Source: Xestospongia muta (taxonomy: Eukaryota > Porifera > Demospongiae > Haplosclerida > Petrosiidae). Taken from it: a DNA stretch of 64,000 nucleotides. Position numbers and translations under genes: made by a program. Within the stretch, counting starts at the first letter, position 1. The number at the start of each line of letters is the position of its first letter. A model generated the notes under the pieces. It saw only the letters and a list, made by a program, of their open reading frames with translations, was not told the origin of the DNA and searched no databases. Positions 45,542 to 64,000 of this stretch are shown here, one piece after another. The stretch lies in contig OY848922.1 in assembly GCA_963693285.1 (NCBI GenBank), forward strand, positions 749,001 through 813,000. Reading direction: 5' to 3'.

Positions 45542-48500
45542 TATACATATAAATAACCTTAAGTACAATTTTTACCTCTTGTTTAAATTAGAATGATTAG
45601 CTAATTTTGCTGCTACAAAGTTAGCAAAAGCAAACGATGGCTGTCCTTCATACAAGTAGTAAATGTATGTCAGTTTGTCTGTCTGTGCATACTGGTGACA
45701 GAGAACTGATTGAGAGAAATGTGGTGGTTCTTGTGGAGCTACAAGATACAAGACAGATGAATATACAGATAACATATAGACAGACAGAATAGATCAATAG
45801 TACCTTCAATATCTTCATCAGCAGCTGCTATTTTGTTAGTTCTTTGCCACTTGAAGAGACGAGATATATCAAACGAGACAGTACCCTAAAATGGATGGAT
45901 AAAAGCAATAATGAATACATAATAAATATAATAGAGATTTCCTAAAAATTTACGGAAATAAATTAATGGAAAGTATTATGATCAATGATTTTTACAATTA
46001 CTTTTAATAGCTCATAGACAGTGACATCCTGTGACTGAGCAGGAGTCAATTTGGTAGGACGAGAAGGAAAAACGGCTGCTTGGAGAGTGGGATAAGCTCC
46101 TAGAACTTGTCGCAAAGTATTCTCATCAACAAACCACGCCTCATGTGCATTAGATGAGTCCATTGCCTATAAAAATTAATGAATTGTTATGAATTTAATG
46201 AGCTACTGTTGTCATTGGTCATGTGACTCTCTTTTTCCTTACATCAGTTAACGATACAGGAGCATACATTAATAGGGCCAATGACATCAGGAGGTGACCA
46301 TTTTTTAACCCATCATTCACTGAAGAACAATTAAAGAGCAGTTGACTACATGACAAACTGGTTAAAAATACATTTTCTGGTTCTAGAGAGAAATCAATGT
46401 CATTTCCAGTGATTATAAAATATTACAATCAATCTAACCTGTGGGGTTCTGTCCTGTCAGCCGACATTGTACTAACAGCTGTACCCACGGAGGTATATCT
46501 GACGAATTAAGTCCCAACTGATGCATACTCTTTCTGTCCAGAGCAAGCCTATATATGGATAAAAAATACTGAAATATACTGAAGTATACAAGAATAGGTG
46601 AGTATACCATCACCAATTCAATGCATATGATCAGTAATACAATATTATGTAGTGATATGGTATATATATATTGAAGTGGTTGGTGGGTTTGTTAAGAGGG
46701 TATGTGTGTCATATTACTTGAAGTAGTCCAGATATAAATACAATAACCCAATAAATTGCATGTTAATCAGATAACCAACAAAGGCACGATGAAATTTGCC
46801 CACCAAAGCATCTGATTGGTCAGTAGCTATATGGGTGGAGTTATAATTACTTATACATTAATTAAATAAGACTCACAATGTAAGGGGTGTGGTTGTGAGA
46901 AAAGGTTATGTAGTCGACCTAACTGGTATAACAGGTTTGTCAGGTGCTCATCATTTGGAAAGTAGTAAAATCCGTGCCTATAATGTGTGTAGTAAAGAGA
47001 GTATAATAATTTTTTTATAACAATAACTATTAATTTTAATTATGTTATTAATATTCATAGCTATTTAAATAGTTGGGCGCACCCACTAATTAGTTGATTA
47101 TGGGTGGAACCCCAGATAAGATGGCAGAAGAAAAGGTTGAGGAGGAACCAACCCCTAAGAAAGCTATAGTCAGTGAAGTACAATTTGCTTATCAACCTGG
47201 AGGACCTTACCCGAGTCACTGCGGTTACTGCCACAGTGAGAATGAACAATTCCTTCTAGAAGGGGTCTGGGCAAAACAAATGTCTGCTCAAGATTTTCAA
47301 GACTTAGTGGACAGAGGGTGTCAAAGATCTGGTAAATTCGTCTATCTCCCCGCGAATAAGATCACGTGCTGTCCACAATATGTACTGAGATTAGATTGTA
47401 AAACATTTCGTATCTCCAAACAGCAGAGGCGAGTTGTACGACGCTTGAACGACTACCTTTTAAATGGCTTACCAGATGGAGCTGTTCTTACTCCAGAAGG
47501 AGTCATTTTGCCGCAGGACAATAAAGATCAATCTACTGGTATAGAGTCTTCATTACCAACTGATACAGAGGAGAAAGCGTCGTCAGATGAAACAGGTGCG
47601 GTCATAGCCGAGGGTGCAACCTCTACTGACATGGAAAAAGGATCACAAGAGTCAGGAAGGAAAACAAAGAAAGTAATCACTCCGGGAGCTGGTCCTGATC
47701 CTAATAAACCTCCTTGTCGGAAAGCAAAAGAAGTACGTCGAGAAAAAAAGGCCATGAAACAAGCCAAGAAAGAGTCAACCACTCTTGAAGTTAATAAGAC
47801 AGAGAAACCAACGAATCGTTTGTCCTCAAGTCCTCTTCCTATGGAAACTGATGCAAACGAGAGAGAAATAGAAGGAACTAACCTAGTGGAGGTAATAAAA
47901 CCACCTGACCCTAAAGATTGTAAACACAAGCTAGAGGTCAAACTGGTCTGTGTTAATCCCATTGGTCAGGATTTCTGGGATACCTACAACAAAAGTTATG
48001 AAGTATTTCGTAAGTTCCAAATGATTATCCACAAAGAACCAGAAGAAAAATGTGCTGAGGACCAATTCCAGCAGTTTTGTGTGGAGACTCCTCTCTTGCC
48101 AGAGGACAGTCCCCCGGGGATAGATATCGCTTATGGCTCGTATCACCAACAATACTGGATAGATGACAATCTTGTTATGGTAGGTGTCGTGGACATCATC
48201 CCCAAAGGAGTTTTGTGTAATTACCTGTACTACGATCCCAAGTATCGTTTCATAGCACCTGGTGTCTACTCTGCTGTTCATGAGATAGGTATGAATCAAG
48301 AACTCTACCGTAAGAACCTGGCACTACAATATTACTACATGGGATATTACGTCCATGACTGTCCCAAGATGAACTATAAGAGACACTATCACTCATCTTA
48401 TCTTCTCTGTCCGGAGACGCTAGTCTATGTGCCTTTAGAAACTGCTCGGACAAAACTAGACGGAGCTAAATATTGTAAGTTTTCAGACGAACCAGATCTG

Positions 48501-51500
48501 GAGACACAGCCACCTGGAGAGGAAGCTCTGGGGGAAATAATGGTCGTGGGTCCACGTTCAACAATACCAGTAAAATACTCTGAATTACGTTTGAAATTCG
48601 GTAGTCGTCTTGATGACTTGATGAAGTGTTACGTCAAGACAGTAGGGATAAATTTGGCGCAAAGAATGATCCTGTATCTAGCTGGTTTAGTTCAACCAGA
48701 ACCACAGTAACAATAGTAGTCATTATAATAGCGAGTGGTTTTTGAAATATCTCAGTTGTAAGAGATAAGATATTGTTTTGTGCCATTTTTTTTACATTTT
48801 CCTTTACCATTTATTTTAACAATTAACAAAAAATAAAACTGTCATAACTTGTGCATACGCATACATTGCTTGTATCTACATGTACATCTAAACATGTTTA
48901 CATGTACCTCTAATATCATGTTTACATGTACATAACTATACATCTAAACAAGTATACATGTACATCTAAACATGTTTACATGTACATTTAAACAAGTTTA
49001 CATGTACATCTAACATCATGTACTACATGTATACTTGTACATGTATAAGTGTATACATTTACATGTAAACAACTGACCTTGCTAGTTCATCCAGTATGAT
49101 GTCCTTGCTATACTGATCACAGTGAGATTCAGGTAGTGATCTTACCAGCTGGTTGACTACCTCTGGTTCTAAATGAGGTACTAATTGAAGGGATGCCCCC
49201 AAATTATGATGAGTTAATTGATAGAGCAGCTGCTCATTAGGATAGACAAGTTTACTGCTATGAGAAAAATCTGAAAAATTATTACAATAACCTGACAAGA
49301 TATTTCTTAGGAAATTGACATACCTTTAGAAGCTCCTGATAGAACTAATGCATCAAAAAGAACTCTTTGACGAGTCTCTGAGTCCCATTCCAATACCACA
49401 TACATGGGAACTTGGATATATAACCCATGTTGTTGTGCACTAATAGGAGATAAGGGACTAGTTGATAAGTCTGGTTCCCATACTACTGCTTGGTCCTGAA
49501 TGGAAATAAAGTACACTAATATTAATTATTTGTGACATCATAGTTACTAAAAATAGATTGACTCCTCCTACTCACCCCTCCAAAATATTCCGGATATAAC
49601 TCTATCACATTACCAGTATTGTTAGAAAAAGCCACACCCTCTGAGGAACCACTAAAAGGCATACCAGATTGTTTATTTTTCATGTCGTAAGTAACTTTAG
49701 CATTTTCATAACAATCCATTGGATAGTATGACTCTAATATATGAAGATAATCTAGAGCATCTGACTCTACTGGACTCAACCATCCTTCACTAACTAACTC
49801 CTCTGCCTGTGGAACAAAATATGATCAAATTATTTTATGAGATGAAGTATTGATTAGCAACTATATTACAACTGTCAATGCTTTGTGTATTATCTAGCAG
49901 TAATAGTTCAAAAGGTCATACTCCAATATTAACTGTACCATATTTCTAGAAGTAATAGTTCAAAGGTCATACTCCAATCCTAACTGTACCATTACTATTG
50001 TACTATTATTGTTGGTACTTACTAAGAAGTCACGAAGTTGTCTCTGTACTGTGTGAAGGAAAATAAAATGTAAGCTGTCTTTTACGTCAGCACCCTGAAC
50101 AAGAGAAGAGGAGACATATCTAACTATTGCTAAACAAGATTTACACAATTAGGTTTATTGTGTGCATTTCAAGTAACATTGTTCTATTAATAGTCAATGA
50201 AATAACTATTATTACAATTAATAAAGTATTATTATAATTAAGTAACTATTAATACAATTAATTAACTATTATTGCAATTAAGGTTATCGTTATACCATTT
50301 GACTGATGTAAGATCTAGCAAGTTTTATGTTCTCTGCTGACAGAGCTTTCATAACTAGCCCCACCCCCACACTAGTTAAATTGTTCAGAGTGACATCATC
50401 TAAGAGGGTGTGGCTTTGATCCTATGGGGAAAATGAAATACATTCATGCTTGATAATGTTAACTTTACCTCTTGATCCTGGGGGTGTGGTGACTCCTCCC
50501 ACTCCATTGCTTTCTGCACTAAGTAGGCTTGCGCTAAAGGTAAGTTACCAGTTGTTAATGCTCGCTGAATTATTTCCTAGAGAGAAAGAGAGAGAGAGAG
50601 AGAAGTCTAAGTTAAACTCTATAATTTGTTTACCTTAGCAGATTGCAGTTGCCATGATTCCTTTCGTACCATTGCCTGTAAAACTGTACTAAACTCTCCA
50701 CTTTTTTCCTCACTCATCTTATTCTCTCTCTCCTCTAAATCTCCTTGAACTGATGATGATGTCCCTCGTGGTAAATACTGGCGAAGATGATGCATATATG
50801 AGGTTATATCAGCTGGAGAGATTATTACATCAGATAAAGGTATCTGACAAGTGCTACCAGACTCGTCACTAACAAGGCGTTGACGAAGATTAGGCGGATG
50901 GTCTGTATCAGCAGTTCCTTCTTCATAGCTATCACTGGAGAGTAATTCCATTCCATGTTTCAAATGAAGTTGATTAGTTTGGGAATGAGACTTGATGATT
51001 CTCAATAGGAAGTTTAAAGCCATGCCCAAGAGTTGACCAGCATATTGACGATTGTGTTCGCTATTGTGGTTACGTCTGTGAGGAATGGACGGATAGTTCA
51101 ATAATGGATGGAAAATGGATACATGGATAAACAAAATGGACATGTAGCTAACAATGCATGGAGAAATGGACAGATGGTTGGAAGAAATGGATCGATAGCT
51201 GAATGATGGATGTATGAATTTACTTGATGGATGTTGTCAATAGTTCTACAGCTGCATCCAATTGTTCAGGAGGAAGAGGAAGTGGAGAGACAGATGAAGT
51301 AGACGCAGGAAGAGAGGAATCCTTCCCTCTATCATCAGATTTATCAGCTGCTTGTAAAGATGAATTCAAAAGTGAAAAAAAGTAAGTTCTACCTCTATTT
51401 CTGAGGAAGAAGGACACAATGTCCAGCTGTCTAAGTTGTAATGCAGTCTCTAGAGCATTGAGAGGTAATGAGCATTGATCCCAATGGTTGAGGTGACACA

Positions 51501-53882: not shown

Positions 53883-54155
53883 ATGGCTGTAGCAAGCGAA
53901 GTAGCAAGGGCTGCAGGACAAGAGAGATCCGTACCCGTCTCTCTAACTTACGTTGATGAATCTATCCTCCTCTCTGTAGGAGATAGAGTTACTATACCAA
54001 CTGAATTTTGGAACTTTGCAGCTGGCTATGCTAATAAAAGAAAAGGTCAGACCTGGTTATCAGATGTCTCAGATCCTACTATCACTGGTGTTGTAAGATG
54101 GTTAGGAACATTACCTCCTATTGGTGGTACACAATTATTTGCTGGAATACAAACA

Positions 54156-54522
54156 GTAAGTGTATATAGATCTACATTAATACAGCTGTTCTAGTGTTGT
54201 TGTAGTTAACTATAACTAATATTAAAATTTTTTAGTAGGGAGTAAAAATTTTAGTTAACTATATTGAAAAAAATCTTAGTTATAGTCTATAGCTAATATT
54301 TTTTCAAATGTTACTATAACCATAACTAAAACTAAAACTCCTTATGTCTACTAAAATAACACTAAGCTGTTCAATTCAGTATTATGCATTTACATTTTAC
54401 AGTAGCTACTTATTGAGCTGTGATTCTAATACAGCACTTTTATGTGAAATTAATACTATATTAATATAATATAAGTAACCAGCACCATATATTAATAATG
54501 AACTTTCACATCACTTTTACAG
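54156..54522. other. First intron of copy 1
   Basis: 367 bp, against 59 bp for the same intron in copy 2. It contains repeated taactaaa/ttagttata phrases and no exon. Confidence 0.6.
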
Positions 54523-55445
54523 GATACTCCTATCTCTACTGATAAGCGTTATCCTAGTGGTTCTTATGCTGATAAAATTTATTTTACTTGTCCTAAGGGA
54601 CATGGAGTCTTCCTTCCAGTGGAATATGTAGTTCGTCGTTCTAAAGATATAAAAGAGACACCAACACCAGCTTATCCTATGAATTCCAGACCACATGGTA
54701 TTGCATTAGTTATGGTGATGGAAGAATACCTTGATGGTGAGCGGCGTAAAGGAGCTGAATATGATACTCAGAATTTTGCCTCTATATTTGAGCACTTACA
54801 ATACACAGTTCAATCTTATACCAAATTTACTAGTTCACAGATGATACAACTAGTAGAAAAGATAGCTAGTATGGATCACACAGCTTATGATAGCTTTGTC
54901 TGTTGTATATCAGCACCTGGAGACGATGACCACTATATACAATGTAGTGATGACAATAATGTTAATATCTATGAACTAGTAGACAAAATACAACAGTGTT
55001 CTACCCTTCAAGAAAAACCAAAGATTTTTATTATTAACTGTAATCGTCAAGACAGTCAACACACACCTCCAAGTATTCCATATAAGATTGGATCTGATAC
55101 ACTCATCATGTGGGGAACTCAAAAGGGACATACCATTATGAATTCAGCTACTATTGGATCCTATTTTGTATTTTATTTAGAAAAGGTTATCAAATTAAAA
55201 TCAAAGACTGCTAACCTCCTTTCAATGACAAATGAAGTATCTGCAATGGTGAGCATGTTCCCTCCATATATATCTCATCATAGTGAGAAATATGTAGGAC
55301 AATGTCCTGAAATTGAGTCACAATTAAAAAGTAAAGTCTACTTTTTCTATGAAGATGAATTACCTGGTAAGTATATTAATGTTATAATAATAGAAACTTA
55401 TATTATTATTTTTATTAGATTATTCTGATTTACTGGACAAAGCTC

Positions 55446-55467
55446 ATGGAAGATGTATTTATCATTG
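55446..55467 (+). other. Templated filler at the deletion junction in copy 1
   Basis: The 22 bases starting atggaagatgtatttatc are identical to 56247-56268, within the same exon about 800 bp downstream, and are absent from the corresponding place in copy 2. Copy 2 instead has about 668 bp here (62770-63437). The right edge shares attg microhomology. Confidence 0.88.
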
Positions 55468-57599
55468 GTGAGCCAGTGGAACGACAGATGACACACCTCC
55501 AACTTCTTGAAGCATCATTTCGTTCACTATCATCTGTAAATCCACCTAATCTTCGTAACATTTACAGCAAATTTTCCCACACTGAGCCTCACCATATAGT
55601 ACTGGGGACATACTATGATAAGATTAGTGAGTGTAGTGAGTCTCTGGATGATAAAGATGCTACCCTTTGGTCCACTCTGAAGCAATTTGATGAGGTACGA
55701 CTAAACTATCGTGAAGGCAGAGAGAAGGTCATCTTTCCAGTCAATGCAATTGGTAGAGGAGATAATGAAGTTAAAATGGCCAATATAATTCGTAACAGAA
55801 TATGTCAGTTTTACATTGAAGCAGAAATCCCAGCTCGGTGGTTCTTGTTCCAGTTAGATTTAGATCAGCTACACAAGACCCATAATACCACAATCATCAG
55901 CAAATCTAAATGTTTGGAGATTGGTGCACCATTGAAGATGGATGGTAACGATATTGAAGCAGCCCTGAAGTATTACCATGATCTGACCATCTTCCTTTAC
56001 TTTCACAAAGTCCTCCCTAATGTTGTATTCCTCCATCCACAGCCACTTTTTGATAAACTCTCTGAGTTGATCAGTATCTCTTTTGCTGATGCTGTGGATC
56101 ATTTAGAGGAGGAGTGTGATACCTGTCTTCCTCCAGGAGCTCACAAACAACTCAAGAATGAAGGAACCTTTGAAAAGAGATTGCTGGAATCATGCTTATC
56201 ACAAGGATTTTCTGCTGAATTTTCGATCAACGATTTTCTAAAGCTAATGGAAGATGTATTTATCATTGCATCACTACCTCAGCCAGGAAAGTATTTTCTT
56301 CCAAGTGTCCTCCCTACTGCTACTCTCTCAGAATGTTCTAAAGCCATCTTTACATCTAATACAGACCCTCTCATTTTGACGTGGGATATGAAATCACTTC
56401 CTCAAGGTCTCTTTCCTGCTTTGGTTGTCAATCTCCTCAATCGCAAATCTTCACCACAATTTGATCTTGCATCTGGCAATCCACAATATCGTAATGCTAT
56501 CCAGTTAGACTGTATTGGTCCAGGAGGTGCTGTTCTATTAGTTGATGCTATTTACTGGTTAGAGATATATTACTCTGGCCTTTCTTCTGAATGCTGTGTT
56601 ATTCGACATTCTGTTAAAGAAGGAGTCAAAGCTGTTGTGAAGAAGTTCCGATACAAACTTACTCTATCAATACCTCAAGAGTGTTTTCATTGTACAATAC
56701 ATAAAACAAGTGATCATCTTTGTCGTCCTAATGAACCTCAAAAGAAGCTAACATGTTGTGAGAAAGGTGCATTAATGGTTGATATTAACCAGTCACGTCA
56801 GGCACCATGGCTTGTAGAGATGACTAGTTCAGATAAACCTATTGAACAACAAGGTTAGTAAGTCAATATCTAGTAATAAGATGATATGTATTCAGTCTTT
56901 GTAACTTAGTTATTTTAATTTATTTATGGTACATTAGTTGTAGACAATTAGTATTTCCTTGTTTTAACAAATCCCCAATATTAATGATAACACCATATAT
57001 GGAGATAATAAAATTCCCTCATACTCATCACACTTCATGTACTCACTCCATTACTCATACCACAAGTTTATCAAAGAATAACAATTTTGTTATTAGTCAA
57101 TACACATATGAAGTCTTTATAGAGTAACATTTAACACTAATAGTGGTCACTGATGTACTATGATACTTGTAATAGAGTATGTTAATACTTTAGTCATTGA
57201 TATAATAGTTGTAGGTAGACTTGAGAAAATTATTAATATTAGTTGTTTTTTTCTAACTACAAAATTCATAGTTATATATTGACATGTAAGAAAGTAGAAA
57301 AATATAATTAAACTAGTAGCACTTTAGTCAGTGAACTTATGACTTATTAATAATCGTCTTTTACATGAACTTGGTATAATAATTGCAATTGCTTTGTCAA
57401 GTATTACATCTGTAAATTGATTTCACTAGTTATGTGTTAATCCTTGAGAATATCATATATAGTTTTAACAACAATAATTTAAATAAGATAGTCATGTTGT
57501 CGTGTTAATTGTTTATAGGATCCAAGTTAACTTAGTTAAAACAGAGCACTAGCTCATGAACATTGTACATAGCAAGTTCACTTATCATTATCCTTGTAG

Positions 57600-57884
57600 G
57601 TCGTTCACTTGACTCAGCACCAGGTGCACATGAACTTCTTGAACTATTAGCTGGTATCAAACATCTGTGGTGTGAAATAGGATTAGCACTGAGAATTTCT
57701 GATGCAGAGCTTGAAGGTCTACGACAAGACCGTGTAGATAATATTGTACGATTGTCTAAAGTATTGCAATGTTGGATTAATCAAAACAAAGACGTGACTT
57801 GGAATAGTATCATTACTGCTTTGAGGAGTAAAATTGTTGGACAGACTCAAGTCGGTCAAGAAATTGAGTCATATGTTTTAAAAG
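57600..57884 (+). other. Death-domain exon
   Basis: The frame reads HLWCEIGLALRISDAELEGL, then a Leu-rich helix VLQCWINQNK and ITALRSKIVG. This matches the spacing of helices in death domains (Trp in helix 1, ALGLSDAEL-like turn, Trp before the loop, and final ALR helix). It is a separate phase-1 exon on both sides, so it can be shuffled or skipped without shifting frame. Confidence 0.75.
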
Positions 57885-58527
57885 GTAGTACATGTCACAT
57901 GACAAGGGACATTCACTTGTCATAGGAGATAAAACTTGATCAATAACATTATCATTTCTTTCATTTAAACAGACAAATTGCCCTCTCAAGCTCGTCAAGT
58001 GTCACAGGAATGTTTACACAACCCTTCATCAGTACCTCGCTCAAAAAATGAAGATGAGAGACCAGGAGGTTTAGAAACTGATGGTTCATTGATAGCACCA
58101 TCTAATACTTCACCTCATACTCAATTAGGTATGTATACATGTAATAGATATGACAGTCATACGTAACCTTAATAACATGTATCTCTCAGGTTTTGTATCT
58201 GTGAAGTAAGTATGAATACTAAAGTTAGACCAACACTATTAAATTCTAATATTGGTACTAAAGCACTAATTCTCAACAATAAAATGTCAACATAGCAGTC
58301 TGTATCAGACATACTTGGATTTGATCCAGACTATTGAGAGTTTGTTCACTGGTACATTATAAACCATTAATAATAATGAATTATTGTGCTTGAGAACAGG
58401 TTCATCATAACTCAAAATTATTTGCAGAGTCAGTTTCAGTCTGCAGTTTAGCAACATTTATTTAATTATCCTTGATAATTGTTCATTAGCAAAATAAATT
58501 TATTAGAATTAATAGAATTAATTAATA

Positions 58528-58640
58528 GTCCAAGAGGTCTAGAAACTGATGGTCCATTGATCATGAGAGCACCATCAAATAAATTAAATAAATTACTATA
58601 GTAAATAGTACTTCACCTCAAATATATTCAGGTATGCAAC
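58528..58640 (+). pseudogene. Degenerate copy of the linker exon, in the last intron
   Basis: Phrases such as aggtctagaaactgatgg, tccattgat and agcaccatc repeat the exon at 57973-58128 in the same order, interrupted by an AT-rich insertion and followed by a similar ttcaggtatg donor. Its frame is broken. Confidence 0.65.
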
Positions 58641-59115
58641 ATGCAATAGATATGACATAGTACATGGGGCTGACACAGTAACTATTGATTAATTTATATT
58701 ATTGCCAAATGTTTTTTCTATAATTAGTTTATTTTTTTATATTTGAAAGCTATATTTTACTGAATTATGAATACAATTCCTTAAACAAAATTCTCAATTT
58801 CTATCTAACTGAACAGTCTTACTTTAGACTTCTTATGCCTCATATAATTGTTTCAACAAAGCATTATGCACTTAATATTGTGGCTACTCTGTAGGGATGT
58901 CCATACTACCATCCCTACTTTGGGCTTGTTTGAGATCTTTTTAACTCCATCCCTACTTTTAATCAATTTTTTAGAATTTTTATTTACTGCTGTTTTATAG
59001 TCTGATAACATAATAATATTATTTTTAAACGCAGTTTATAATAAATCTATAATTATATATAGGTTGGTGTGCAGTGTCATTCATTGTAGCAATTTTCGCT
59101 GTAATGATATGGTAA

Positions 59116-60061
59116 GACTCATTCAAATAAAGTAATTCTTTGTGTCTATAGTAGTTATGTACATGATTCTATGGAAGCCGCAGAAGGACATTTCAATTCC
59201 TATTTCCTATATCTTCCATGGACCTTTGCATATTAAAAAAATTCCAATTAACAACCCAGTTGATGAGCTCCAATTTGTTATTCCTAATTCCATGTTTGGC
59301 ATGTACACCATTTCTAGGCTTTTGTTGTTATTTAATAAAATGTGGAGCACGAGTACCATGTGCTGTCTCTTAGAATCAAGCAACAGCAAGATGTTTCCAG
59401 TTGGGTTGGGTTCCTGATTTTGGTTGTATATTGGAATTGGAACCCATCAACTGCATCTTTAATTGGAATATAAGGTGCCCAGAAGAAATTGGAAATAGGA
59501 ATAGGAATGTCCGTCTGCAGCTTCTGTATGATTCCTATGAATGATTGTTGCATTCTCTTGATATACAGTAGATATTATTTGTGTATTATAAACTGTAGTT
59601 TATAACTTTAGTCATCAGAATGATGATTCAATTGATCTATCATTTTTCATAGGTACATCATGAGTAATATGCTTTGAACAATGTTGGTGTCCATCATGTA
59701 TCAAATCTTTTTATGTTGCATGATGCTAGGCTATTAATATTGTTAATGTTCTTTTGATATAATCCTCTCTTTTCCATTTTGTTACATTTGCTGTTAATTA
59801 CCTAATACCTTACCTAAGATTGTATAGGTATCTGTATTTTTGTCACTGCATTTTATTATTTTTAATATATAGATATTAATAAACTTTTAAAATTTTCTAA
59901 AACTGTATGTACTTTAAATGTATGGCTGCATGTGGTCAAATAAGAACAATTTAAAAATGAATATTTTATAACCATCAATTAATTTTTATTTCAGAAAATA
60001 ACAAGTAATTTTCTATAACACATTTACTAACAGCAGTGAATAGTTATCTAATGTAGTGTCT
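59116..60061. other. Intergenic region between copy 1 and truncated gene tails
   Basis: Includes an inverted-repeat element at 59160-59555. The rest is AT-rich with no exon supported. Confidence 0.6.
59160..59555. mobile_element. Imperfect inverted-repeat element
   Basis: The left arm (about 59165-59290: gaagccgcagaaggacatt, cctatttcc, ccaatta, ccagttgatg) is the reverse complement, with changes, of the right arm (about 59415-59545). Two small open frames on opposite strands arise from this symmetry. Likely an old foldback or MITE; no coding function. Confidence 0.7.
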
Positions 60062-60345
60062 TTATTGATGAGTAGATTGATCAACAAGATGTTTAAAGAG
60101 TTGAACTAGTTGGTCAAGTTTATCTTGTACATCCTACAATAGTGACATATAACTAGAATATATAAAACAGTACTGACTTGACTAGCTAAGTATTGTCTTG
60201 TTTGTAGTATTACTTCCACTATTTTCAAGTCATTAGTCTCTCCAGGAGACACACCCTGAAGATTAAAATGAAAGAAAAGAATAAGATCACTATATTTCTG
60301 ACATGAGGCAATCAATTTGTTAGCAGTTGCCTCCAACTCACTAAT
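60062..60345 (-). pseudogene. Isolated last three exons of an unidentified helical protein
   Basis: Minus-strand exons with good splice sites read ISELEATANKLIASCQKY, GVSPGETNDLKIVEVI and KLDQLVQLFKHLVDQSTHQ, then stop at 60062. The first exon has an acceptor (ctgcag) but no upstream exon is found before the next gene fragment at 60569. A coiled-coil-like protein, family not recognised. Probably a truncated 3' end. Confidence 0.55.
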
Positions 60346-60568
60346 CTGCAGGAAATAGATCATGTAATATATATATTAACAATGTGTGGACATAACTGAA
60401 CACTGTTTACATAGTCTAAAATTTCTAAGTAGGAGGGAACTATTTTAAGCTCACTTTACTTAGTTCAATCACTTAATATATTATTTTAATATCTATTACC
60501 TATCATTGCCAGTATTTTAACCATATCATGTCACTCATGATCTGTCTTTGTGTGTGTAGATGATATCT

Positions 60569-61370
60569 CTAATACCATGAACTTGATGTAGAATGTTGTG
60601 TACTATTATAAGTTTGTCCACTATAAACTCCTCCTCCTTGTTGACCATATTGTTGTTGAGTAGAATAGTTCATTGTACCACTACTACTAGTACCATAAGG
60701 GACTGGAGCTGGATAACTAGTGGATTGGGTATGAGGATATGAAGAAAAGGATTGAGGTCTAGACTGGTGTTAGTACAAGGATCCTACATAAAGAGATATA
60801 GTTCTTTTTGATGTCATTAGTATATGTGACCTGATTTGCAAAAAGGGACCACTTCTGTCAAAACATTTGTGACCTGATTTGTGAAAAAAACACTGTCAAA
60901 ACATTTCAAAAACAGTTTTGCATACATATAGAATAGTTATGCATATATAGCAACTTTATGTATACAAAACTGAGATGTTTGAGATGTTTTAAAGTGGTTT
61001 GTTCACAAAACAGATCACAAATATTTTGAAAGAAGTTTTCCCTTTTTGCAAATCAAGTCACATATATTAACATACTGGAGTTATAGATTGATAGCCATAT
61101 AGATCATTACCACTACTAGTAGTAGATGTAGACCAGTTATTATAATAAGACTGTTGTGATGAGGAGTGGTGTTGAACAGGAGATGACTTAGAGTGAAGAA
61201 ATAACTCAACATATCTTGATCCTATATAATAGATCATCTTATACTGTAGATTGTACTACAATATTACCTATATGACTTCTGTCTTTCTTCATGGCTGTTA
61301 TAGCATCTTCATGACTGTTGAGCCATACCTCTCCTTCTTCAGAGGTTTGGTCACAAGAATCATGAACTGA
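60569..61370 (-). pseudogene. Truncated 3' end of an hnRNP H/F-like quasi-RRM gene
   Basis: Three minus-strand segments splice in frame. The first reads VWLNSHEDAITAMKKDRSHI and the second SRYVELFLHS, the hallmark end of the last quasi-RRM of hnRNP H/F proteins. A Ser/Gln/Tyr/Gly-rich tail (YGQQGGGVYSGQTY) then ends at a stop (60569-60571). The 5'-most exon begins at an acceptor near 61370, and only about 110 bp separate it from the start codon of the divergent gene at 61479, so the other RRMs are missing. hnRNP H/F binds G-rich RNA in splicing; this piece could not do so alone. Confidence 0.72.
60821..61067. mobile_element. Foldback (MITE-like) element filling the hnRNP H/F intron
   Basis: Starts tatatgtgacctgatttgca and ends with the complement (tgcaaatcaagtcacatata). 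The arms of about 105 bp are complementary with scattered mismatches, around a short centre (agaatagttatgcatat). Non-coding. It occupies nearly the whole intron between the exon ending near 60763 and that beginning near 61076. Confidence 0.82.
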
Positions 61371-61478
61371 AAGAAGAAAGTTCTTTTTGAATTGAGAGAG
61401 AAAATATGCACCTACCTAGATAATAAATGAGTAATTACATTATTATAGATAATTACATTCTATTATAATAATAGTGAT

Positions 61479-64000
61479 ATGGCTGTAGCGAGCGAGGTAG
61501 TAAGGGCTGCAGGACAGGAGAGTCTATTATCTGTACCTGTCTCTCTACCTTATGTTGATGAACCTATCCTGCTCTCTGTAGGAGATAGAGTTACTATACC
61601 AACTGAATTTTGGAACTATACAGCTGATAGTGTTAACACGATTAGTAAGGATGATATAAATTTGAAAACGAGAGGTCAGCCTTGGATATCAGATGTCTCA
61701 GATCCTACTATCACTGGTGTTGTAAGATGGTTAGGAACATTACCTCCTAGTGGTAATACACAATTATTTGCTGGAATACAAACAGTAAGTTTGATCAATT
61801 ATGTAAAGGAAGTATACTATTATACAAATTCTCGTTTACACAGGACACTCCTGTCTCTACTGACAACCATGGTCCTAGTGGTACTTATGCTGATCAAACA
61901 TATTTTATTTGTCCTAAGAGACATGGAATCTTCCTTCCAGTGGAGTATGTAGTCCGTCACTCTAAAGATATAAAAGAGAAACCAACACCAGCTTATCCTA
62001 TGAATGCCAGACCACATGGTATTGCATTGGTTATGGTGATTGAAGAATACTCAGACGGCGAACAGTGTAATGGAGGTAAACTTGATTCTCAGACCTTCAT
62101 CACTACTTTCAACTACTTACAATACACAGTTCGATCTTATAACAAATTTACTAGTTCACAGATGATACAACTAGTAGAAGAGATAGCTAGTATGGATCAC
62201 ACAGCTTATGACAGCTTTGTCTGTTGTATATCATCCGCTGGAAGTAATGACCACTATGTAGTATGTAGTGATCGCAAACGTGTTAATGTGTATGAATTAG
62301 TGGACAAAGTACAACTTTGTTCTACCCTTCAAGGAAAACCAAAGATTTTTTTTATTAGTTGTGGTCGTTTAGAAAATCCACGTGTACCTTCAAGTATTCC
62401 ATACATAGTTGGATCTGATACACTTATCATGTGGCCAACTCAAAAGAGACATACTTTTGGTAAAAATTCAAGTACCATTGGGTGCTATTTCTTGTTTCAC
62501 TTAAAGAAGGTTATCAAATTAAAATCAAAGACCACTGACCTCCTTTCAATGACAAATGAAGTATCTGCAATTGTGAGCATTATCCCTCCATTTATATCTC
62601 GTCGTATTGGAAGATATAGAGGACAATGTCCTGAAGTCGAGTCACAATTAAAATGTAAAGTCTACTTTTTCTATGAAGATGAATTACCTGGTAAGCATAT
62701 TAATGTTATGATAATAGAAACTTATATTATTATTTTCATTAGATTATTCTGGTTTACTGGACAAAGCTCTTGATGAAGGCTATGTCACTGTTAAGTGGAC
62801 CAAACTCACCTTGTCTGGTGCACCAGCTACTGGAAAGTCCTCCATTATCAAGTTACTACTCAATGAACCTCCACCTGACAACCATCATAGTACTCCTGTC
62901 ATCAAAGCACCTGAAGTAAGGAAGGTAGAGATTGCTGGTCTCATAGCAGGAGGAGAACCAACTGGTTCATCTAGTATCCAGTGTTGGGGTAAAGTAGACT
63001 ATGAGTCTCTAAAAGCTATGGTTACTAGAACCATGAAAGGAGGTATCAAGTCTAAACCATCAATGTCAGAAGGAGAAGATGTAGACAACAGTATACAGGG
63101 TGATGAATCTGGTGATAATGACACTGATGATGACGATATAGGTCGTGAAAATCCTGCATCGACCACACCTACCAAAGAAAGCCCTGAAGTTACTTCCTTA
63201 CCTAGTCCACTTTCTCCAGCAAGAGAAGAGGTGGCTCGACTATTACCTACTGTATCAAAGTCTGATGAGCTTTATAACACTCACTGGATATATGTTATAG
63301 ATTCTGGGGGTCAGGCTGCATTCTTAGATATTGCTCCTGCTCTGCTACATTATAATCCAGTCAACATTCTTACACTCAAGTTAAATGAGAAACTTGAAGA
63401 TCAACCCAAATTTTACTTCAGTGTTAGAGGAAAACAAATTGGTGAGCCAGTGGAACGACAGATGACACACCTCCAACTTCTTGAAGCATCATTTCGTTCA
63501 CTATCATCTGTAAATCCACCTAATCTTCGTAACATTTACAGCAAATTTTCCCACACTGAGCCTCACCATATAGTACTGGGGACATACTATGATAAGATTA
63601 GTGAGTGTAGTGAGTCTCTGGATGATAAAGATGCTACCCTTTGGTCCACTTTGAAGCGATTTGATGAGGTACGACTAAACTATCGTGAATCCAGAGAGAA
63701 GGTCATCTTTCCAGTCAATGCAATTGGTAGAGGAGATAATGAGGTTAAAATGGCCAATAAGATTCGTAACAGAATATGTCAGTTTTACATTGAAGCAGAA
63801 ATCCCAGCTCGATGGTTCTTGTTCCAGTTAGATTTAGACCAGCTACACAAGACCCATAATACCACAATCATCAGCAAATCTAAATGTTTGGAGATTGGTG
63901 CACCATTGAAGATGGATGGTAACGATATTGAAGCAGCCCTGAAGTATTACCATGATCTGACCATCTTCCTTTACTTTCACAAAGTCCTCCCTAATGTTGT
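61479..64000 (+). CDS. CAP-Gly, caspase-like, Roc-COR GTPase gene, copy 2 (partial, runs off the window)
   Basis: Exons 61479-61784, 61844-62690 and 62743 to the window end join in frame with no break seen. Exon 1 and the exon 2 start encode a CAP-Gly-like domain (GVVRWLGTLPP; YFICPKRHGIFLP). Exon 2 encodes a caspase-like fold (YDSFVCCISSAG, KPKIFFISCGR, GSDTLIMW) without the usual His and Cys positions. Exon 3 has a P-loop (SGAPATGKSS, about 62815), HSTPVI as a likely G2 Thr, an acidic insert, a G3-like VIDSGGQAAF (63300), a G4-like LGTYYDK and the COR domain start. The Asp-x-Gly-Gly-Gln motif is typical of Roc GTPases. By analogy with copy 1, a death domain and a membrane helix should follow beyond 64000. 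Its cellular role is not known; a regulated death or immune signalling scaffold is inferred. Confidence 0.8.

Follow-up and report, generated by a model that had tools for sequence, protein, structure and literature searches.

What kind of protein is encoded by a pair of tandem genes near the end of a 64-kb stretch of the genome of the sponge Xestospongia muta? The stretch, referred to here as the window, comprises 64,000 nucleotides of contig OY848922.1 (C6:749001-813000; positions given without a prefix are those of the window), and the genome searched amounted to 158 Mb in 28 contigs. An initial annotation had described tandem genes at this locus, and two tandem copies are indeed found on the forward strand, one at 53883-59677 and the other running from 61479 to C6:814855, beyond the window edge. 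The annotated domain order, in which a CAP-Gly domain, a non-catalytic caspase fold, a Roc-COR unit and a death domain follow one another, is intact in copy 2 and recurs in 27 genes. It is a fair inference from this order that the products could act as GTPase-gated scaffolds. Our favoured reading, which we put at roughly one in two, goes further: the family would comprise cytosolic NLR-like sensors in which a variable pseudo-caspase acts as reader, Roc-COR as switch and interchangeable death domains as outputs.

A four-exon gene and its family

Copy 2 (completed beyond the window from locus L005) comprises four exons that together encode 1,189 residues with no internal stop. In the spliced model these are exon 1 (61479-61784); exon 2 (61844-62690), which holds the remaining part of the CAP-Gly domain and the dead caspase fold; exon 3 (62743-64000 and on past the window to C6:813818), which encodes Roc-COR; and a terminal death exon of class B (C6:814515-814855). 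The initial annotation had assembled the full architecture as a composite of both copies, and this is rejected because copy 2 is complete by itself. Pfam finds CAP_GLY (38.2 bits, cut-off 26.5), Peptidase_C14 (77.1 bits, cut-off 21.4) and Death (22.7 bits, cut-off 22.6) in spliced copy 2, and the CAP-Gly and death domains were thereby both recovered in the profile hidden Markov model searches that had been proposed as a check. The CAP-Gly match spans the exon 1/2 junction; exon 2 alone reaches 18.8 bits, below the cut-off, which is passed when exons 1 and 2 are joined, and this supports the splice between them. The CAP-Gly domain had been called CYLD-like, a label that is not specific, since CLIP-115 (E 0.00016) and then CEP350 outscore CYLD (third; 7owd, E 0.003) in a PDB sequence search. 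CYLD itself combines a CAP-Gly domain, similar in sequence to the one found here, with a ubiquitin-specific protease domain; no ubiquitin-protease model matched spliced copy 2 in Pfam. The caspase fold is recognized by sequence, both in Pfam (77-99 bits) and in the PDB (caspase-3, E 8e-18). Exon 3 is called Roc because it carries the GTPase motifs GxxxxGKS, DSGGQ and LGTxxDK, which we take to be those of Roc and which all 11 copies examined contain, nine of these being caspase-type copies.

It might be asked whether these exons form one protein at all, or whether the CAP-Gly/caspase and Roc-COR-death parts are separate adjoining genes, as the Roc-COR-death loci on contigs C1 and C2 (L014-L016), with no CAP-Gly or caspase exons in the stretch fetched, could suggest. 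However, all 13 copies checked share the same splice signals and phases (exon 1|GTRAGT, AG|exon 2, exon 2 G|GTAAG and AG|exon 3), including those of the exon 2/3 intron of ~50 bp. The introns can even be read through: one sister copy has no stop in its exon 1/2 intron, and both exons lie there within a single 438-aa frame, and in a gene on C10 exons 2 and 3 each report the same open frame length of 987 aa. With a CAP-Gly domain that itself straddles the first junction, a division into two genes is very improbable.

Copies 1 and 2 open a forward array that reaches ~C6:914 kb. Genome-wide, exon 1 gave 34 matches (35 of 35 candidates scored) and exon 2 gave 63 (67 of 67 scored), of which 38 were taken as family and 25 as other caspases or weak matches. 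Among the 38 family rows, 35 have exon 1 upstream, 33 of these also have exon 3 and 28 also a death match; one gene with a split exon 2 occupies two rows, so that the 28 rows represent 27 distinct genes with ordered exons. Fourteen lie in the forward C6 array, two on the reverse strand of C6 (exons 2 and 3 of one of them being ~3 kb apart) and 11 on C10, these being counts of exon matches rather than of genes each read throughout, with class C death exons placed approximately. The member count that the initial annotation had called for therefore stands at 27 on C6 and C10, and chance is excluded as the origin of the arrangement by its repetition across 34 exon 1 matches, 38 family exon 2 matches and 27 ordered genes. 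Five of the 33 rows with exons 1-3 have no match to the death classes entered, and on C13 there is a gene in which exons 1 and 2 are accompanied by a COR match and two death matches. The Roc-COR exon extends well beyond the family, with at least 98 matches (98 of 98 scored, of 801 candidates), and a Roc-COR query from C2 gave at least 65 (65 of 65 scored, of 991 candidates). One locus of this large C2 expansion (C2:18983 kb; L015:1143-1364) has ankyrin repeats (Pfam Ank, 39.9 bits) in front of its Roc-COR exon, a relative of exon 3.

The caspase fold and its former groove

The residues of the caspase fold were read in 29 of the 38 family rows, against a reference of three catalytic caspases of the same genome and human caspase-3. 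H121, C163 and R207 are found in 0 of 29 family domains and in 4 of 4 catalytic proteins, two C13 rows being gapped at H121. Other positions are kept to differing extents: R64 in 11, Q161 in 3, G122 in 27 and R164 in 26 of the 29. In many C6 copies a Cys stands one residue ahead of the C163 column, where a shift of the alignment is possible; judged from the alignment, the catalytic His is lost in the family whether or not that column is shifted. An active protease is thus ruled out by its residues, since none of the 29 domains read retains the catalytic His, a Cys at the catalytic position or the Arg that binds substrate, and the non-catalytic caspase fold of the initial annotation is borne out. 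Catalytic caspases do occur elsewhere in the genome: two with intact His and Cys motifs lie ~165-180 kb before the window (L026, C6:567300-568950, and L027, C6:583000-584450), the former being the closest catalytic relative of exon 2 (38% identity), and a fourth catalytic caspase, at C11:5937 kb and outside the alignment used here, has both motifs. A phage search with exon 2 gave no match.

Variation among copies is concentrated around the former active site. Entropy was calculated for 15 C6 and 8 C10 copies (C6_976, C6_947, C6_985, C6_951 and the two C13 rows were left out), with the groove loops (L1, His, L2, L3 and L4) and the other loop boundaries placed by caspase-3 residue numbers. Mean entropy was 1.23 bits in the groove loops vs 0.50 elsewhere in C6, and 0.90 vs 0.21 in C10, differences that were reached by 0 of 228 and 2 of 228 circular shifts, respectively. 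The explanation that loops always vary was rejected, as the other loops of the fold are far less variable than those of the groove (1.23 vs 0.33 bits in C6 and 0.93 vs 0.14 in C10; 0 of 5000 permutations in each); strands and helices gave 0.55 (C6) and 0.23 (C10). Some variable positions are also found outside the named loops, for example at 132-133 (caspase-3 numbers) and at exon 2 position 38.

The ratio of non-synonymous to synonymous change (dN/dS) follows the same division, being 0.45 (bootstrap 0.33-0.59) in C6 and 0.52 (0.32-0.84) in C10 for the rest of the caspase fold. Among the most closely related fifth of pairs, the groove ratio is 1.16 in C6 (dN>dS in 14 of 21 pairs) and 1.27 in C10 (4 of 5), whilst that of the core is 0.51 (0 of 21) and 0.86 (2 of 5). 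A site test of our own, a grid in the manner of FUBAR (fast, unconstrained Bayesian approximation) run on one tree with a threshold of P(beta>alpha)>0.9, gave for C6 values above that threshold at 6 of the 68 sites in the groove, 2 of the 165 in the core and 1 of the 45 in the N-terminal part, and for C10 at three groove, one core and no N-terminal sites. Silent fourfold differences are likewise raised in the groove, at 0.181 vs 0.101 in C6 and 0.163 vs 0.034 in C10. These patterns fit a groove whose diversity is kept against gene conversion, and the ratios and fourfold differences do not amount to proof of positive selection.

A number of results count against a sensor role. Over all pairs the groove dN/dS is 0.95 in C6 (bootstrap 0.62-1.32) and 0.95 in C10 (0.67-1.38), both ranges spanning 1, and drift on a dead active site is a possible source of a value near 1. 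Pooling C6 and C10 leaves two groove, one core and one N-terminal site over P 0.9, and all of the selection counts ignore recombination. As regards the anatomy, COR-A in spliced copy 2 scores 33.3 bits, slightly below the cut-off of 35.3 (it is above the cut-off in copy 1, at 37.6 bits, and in sister copies, and the COR domain follows directly after Roc); no Roc model matched in the Pfam scans of the window exons and spliced copy 2; and structure prediction of exon 2 alone gave a predicted local distance difference test (pLDDT) score of 35, so that the caspase fold rests on sequence. Finally, the caspase-like open reading frame of locus L042, a candidate partner discussed below, has no match better than E 0.3 in a PDB search.

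The groove dN/dS of ~1 and the loss of the catalytic residues in every domain read would also be expected of a regulatory scaffold like cFLIP, in which the dead caspase would do no more than form dimers with active caspases or modulate them, while its loops vary because the loss of catalysis freed them from constraint; cFLIP is indeed a known pseudocaspase that pairs with caspase-8 (PMC11121540). Plain relaxed constraint does not, however, predict the raised fourfold silent differences in the groove, the groove variation is repeated independently in two clusters, G122 and R164 are kept in 27 and 26 of 29 domains, and a regulator has no obvious need of 27 copies. Such a scaffold is on balance unlikely, and among the alternatives considered it is the one to be taken most seriously.

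The sensor reading begins from an anatomy read in the sequence, from which we infer a mechanism. The variable pseudo-caspase surface would bind a varied or fast-changing partner; candidates are a self/non-self ligand and, if the domain serves as a decoy bait, a caspase inhibitor or protease of microbial origin. Binding of the partner would shift the GTP state or the dimerization of Roc-COR, and the death domain would then recruit an adaptor or protease matched to its class. The more specific proposal of germline-diversified recognition, in which the dead-caspase groove would be a variable binding surface, diverse despite the conversion that homogenizes Roc-COR, and the interchangeable death exons would set the outputs, is tentative and falls somewhat short of even odds. 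If correct, it would represent a new receptor design for animal innate immunity or self-recognition, with a caspase fold as a GTPase-gated variable reader; the switch is presumably of the LRRK2/DAPK GTPase class. The arrays would then split reader, switch and output into independently varying exons, and the residues around the former groove provide specific, named targets.

Roc-COR core, death exons and the tail of copy 1

Among the C6 copies for which complete exons were available, divergence differs markedly from exon to exon. For exon 3, dS/dN is 0.072/0.018 (6 copies; dN/dS 0.24), compared with 0.255/0.150 for exon 2 (9 copies) and 0.086/0.081 for exon 1 (5 copies), the silent-site divergence of the caspase exon being ~3.5 times that of the Roc-COR exon. 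The near-identical block (94-96%) around exon 3 extends ~430-470 bp into the following intron at four loci and ~200 bp at a fifth; copy 2 is only 70% identical to this block in the intron after exon 3.

The terminal death exons fall into at least four classes, which occur in shuffled order in the array. Their order in the forward array is A, B, D, C (with a decayed B), B, B, B, B, D, A (disrupted), C, D, D, B+D and B, and matches to class B fall into a group of three at 96-100% and a group of four at 61-63%. The death exon does not track the caspase exon: exon 2 is 97% identical between the 877- and 904-kb copies, which end in deaths A and B+D, and likewise 97% identical between the 865- and 887-kb copies, which end in B and C, whereas the 872- and 893-kb copies, 86% identical in exon 2, both end in D. 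Behind one reverse-strand gene (C6:941116-944936; L041) stand seven death exons in tandem, which alternate between two types and each end in a stop; this suggests that the gene may have alternative ends.

Copy 1 is damaged. Its exon 1 (53883-54155), with the start codon and the first part of the CAP-Gly domain, is 84% identical to that of copy 2 and has a GTAAGT donor; exon 2 (54523-55366) holds the remaining CAP-Gly and the dead caspase fold (Pfam C14, 99.1 bits), with the catalytic His and Cys positions lost. Both are open frames. In exon 3 (55419-56853), by comparison with copy 2, ~670-680 bp that include the Roc motifs have been deleted; the exon 2 frame then reaches a stop, and the COR part is kept out of frame. 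The deletion junction carries 21 bp identical to 56247-56267. The initial annotation was therefore right to regard copy 1 as broken. Downstream lie a class A death exon (57600-57884; Pfam Death 23.3 bits, cut-off 22.6), whose nearest other full-length relatives are seven C3 loci at 66-71%, and a linker exon (57973-58128), in phase by inspection, the region of which is 93% identical to C6:883922-885621 and, at the DNA level, 77-78% identical to three loci on C3. A hydrophobic exon (59063-59111; with the following exon attached, its 19-residue Kyte-Doolittle mean is 2.32) and a putative last exon with a stop (59653-59677; acceptor and phase by inspection) complete the copy; all of these exons are on the forward strand. 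Both tail exons have counterparts at one other place, locus L040 (see below), the last one in the same sequence context, and together they plausibly form a tail anchor. A repeat with inverted ends (59169-59529), resembling a miniature inverted-repeat transposable element and with many genomic matches, lies between the two.

The membrane helix that the initial annotation had placed at the end of the architecture is thus present as a hydrophobic exon in copy 1 and at C6:883922-885621 (L040), and there is no clear transmembrane segment in the intact copy 2 (best 19-residue Kyte-Doolittle mean 1.47 vs 2.32 in the copy 1 tail). When 40 of the 665 candidates from a DNA search of the genome, many of which match a repeat inside the query, were scored, the copy 1 tail turned up at that one further place, where the class A death match is incomplete and contains a TGA; no match was found in any of the 12 ten-kilobase loci fetched. 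With the tail behind death class A alone and, within that search, in two defective copies, membrane tethering is not supported as a general feature of the family.

Damage of this kind raises the possibility that the family is a largely non-functional expansion, produced by recent tandem duplication and gene conversion, with most copies decaying. In accord with it are the loss of the Roc motifs from copy 1, the disruption of the class A death in the 877-kb copy, the incomplete state of copies at C6:847 kb, C10:1765 kb and C10:1879 kb, and the decayed remnants of death exons. Such decay is nonetheless improbable for the family as a whole, given that exon 3 is stop-free in 98 of 98 scored matches with a dN/dS of 0.24, that 33 of 33 exon 2 translations are stop-free (20 being the longest open frame of their stretch) and that all 38 family exon 2 rows are free of stops.

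Relatives, possible partners and neighbouring genes

DAPK1 and MFHAS1 are ROCO proteins with a death domain, and the family shares with such proteins the P-loop GTPase motifs, a COR-A match and a C-terminal death domain. It differs from them in having a CAP-Gly domain and a dead caspase in front, in its arrays of near-identical copies and in the absence of kinase or leucine-rich repeats from the Pfam matches of copy 2. With NACHT-LRR proteins (NLRs) it would share a logic of variable reader, nucleotide switch, death-fold output and tandem expansion, although its switch is Roc-COR and its reader a caspase fold; a Pfam scan of spliced copy 2 that admitted E values up to 1 gave neither NACHT nor LRR. 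NLR expansions have been described in sponges, and in the part of that paper available COR appears once, in a legend (PMC12909245). The caspase fold with lost catalytic residues recalls cFLIP and other pseudocaspases (PMC11121540), but here it is fused to CAP-Gly and Roc-COR-death, its loops vary among many copies, and Pfam has no death-effector domain match in spliced copy 2.

Two lineage-specific systems are also comparable. The 357 TRADD-N proteins of Amphimedon carry death-like units and have C-termini that vary and include caspase and ankyrin (PMC8195603); both cases involve an expansion of death-domain proteins, by the hundred and with variable C-termini in Amphimedon, whereas the Amphimedon proteins are built around TRADD-N with death domains in front, and CAP-Gly has no mention in the text consulted. 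The sea-anemone protein encoded by actiniarian novel gene 3 combines kinase, Roc/COR, death and TIR, and thus likewise joins Roc/COR and death in a single protein by lineage-specific shuffling; it has kinase, SH3 and TIR where the present family has CAP-Gly and caspase (PMC5094078). A literature search, with subscription journals mostly outside its reach, found no paper joining CAP-Gly, caspase, Roc and death among those listed.

Outside the family, the nearest class D deaths are at C6:1571 kb (78%) and on C4 (among 150 of 446 candidates scored). At two C4 loci, L042 (C4:7562400-7565000) and L043 (C4:6289500-6292300), a caspase-like open reading frame with His-Gly and Cys-Cys motifs is preceded, at a distance of 1.1-1.3 kb, by a class D death, and Pfam finds both Death and caspase at L042; at the third C4 locus read, L044, the caspase-like frame precedes the class D death. 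It is possible that the C4 caspase-like proteins are partners of class D sensors. If the death and caspase frames form one protein, a class D sensor could be coupled to a protease through homotypic death contacts, a coupling for which MALT1-type proteins provide a precedent.

Other genes accompany the family. Pieces of a minus-strand gene (60569-61413 and L005:5060-5224) lie between the copies and recur behind others, as if duplicated with the unit; an assignment to an RNA-binding protein made by eye was dropped, as Pfam returned nothing for the two pieces scanned. Upstream of the array, an arginyl-tRNA-protein transferase is encoded at 47097-48707 (Pfam ATE_N 68.1 and ATE_C 119.7 bits).

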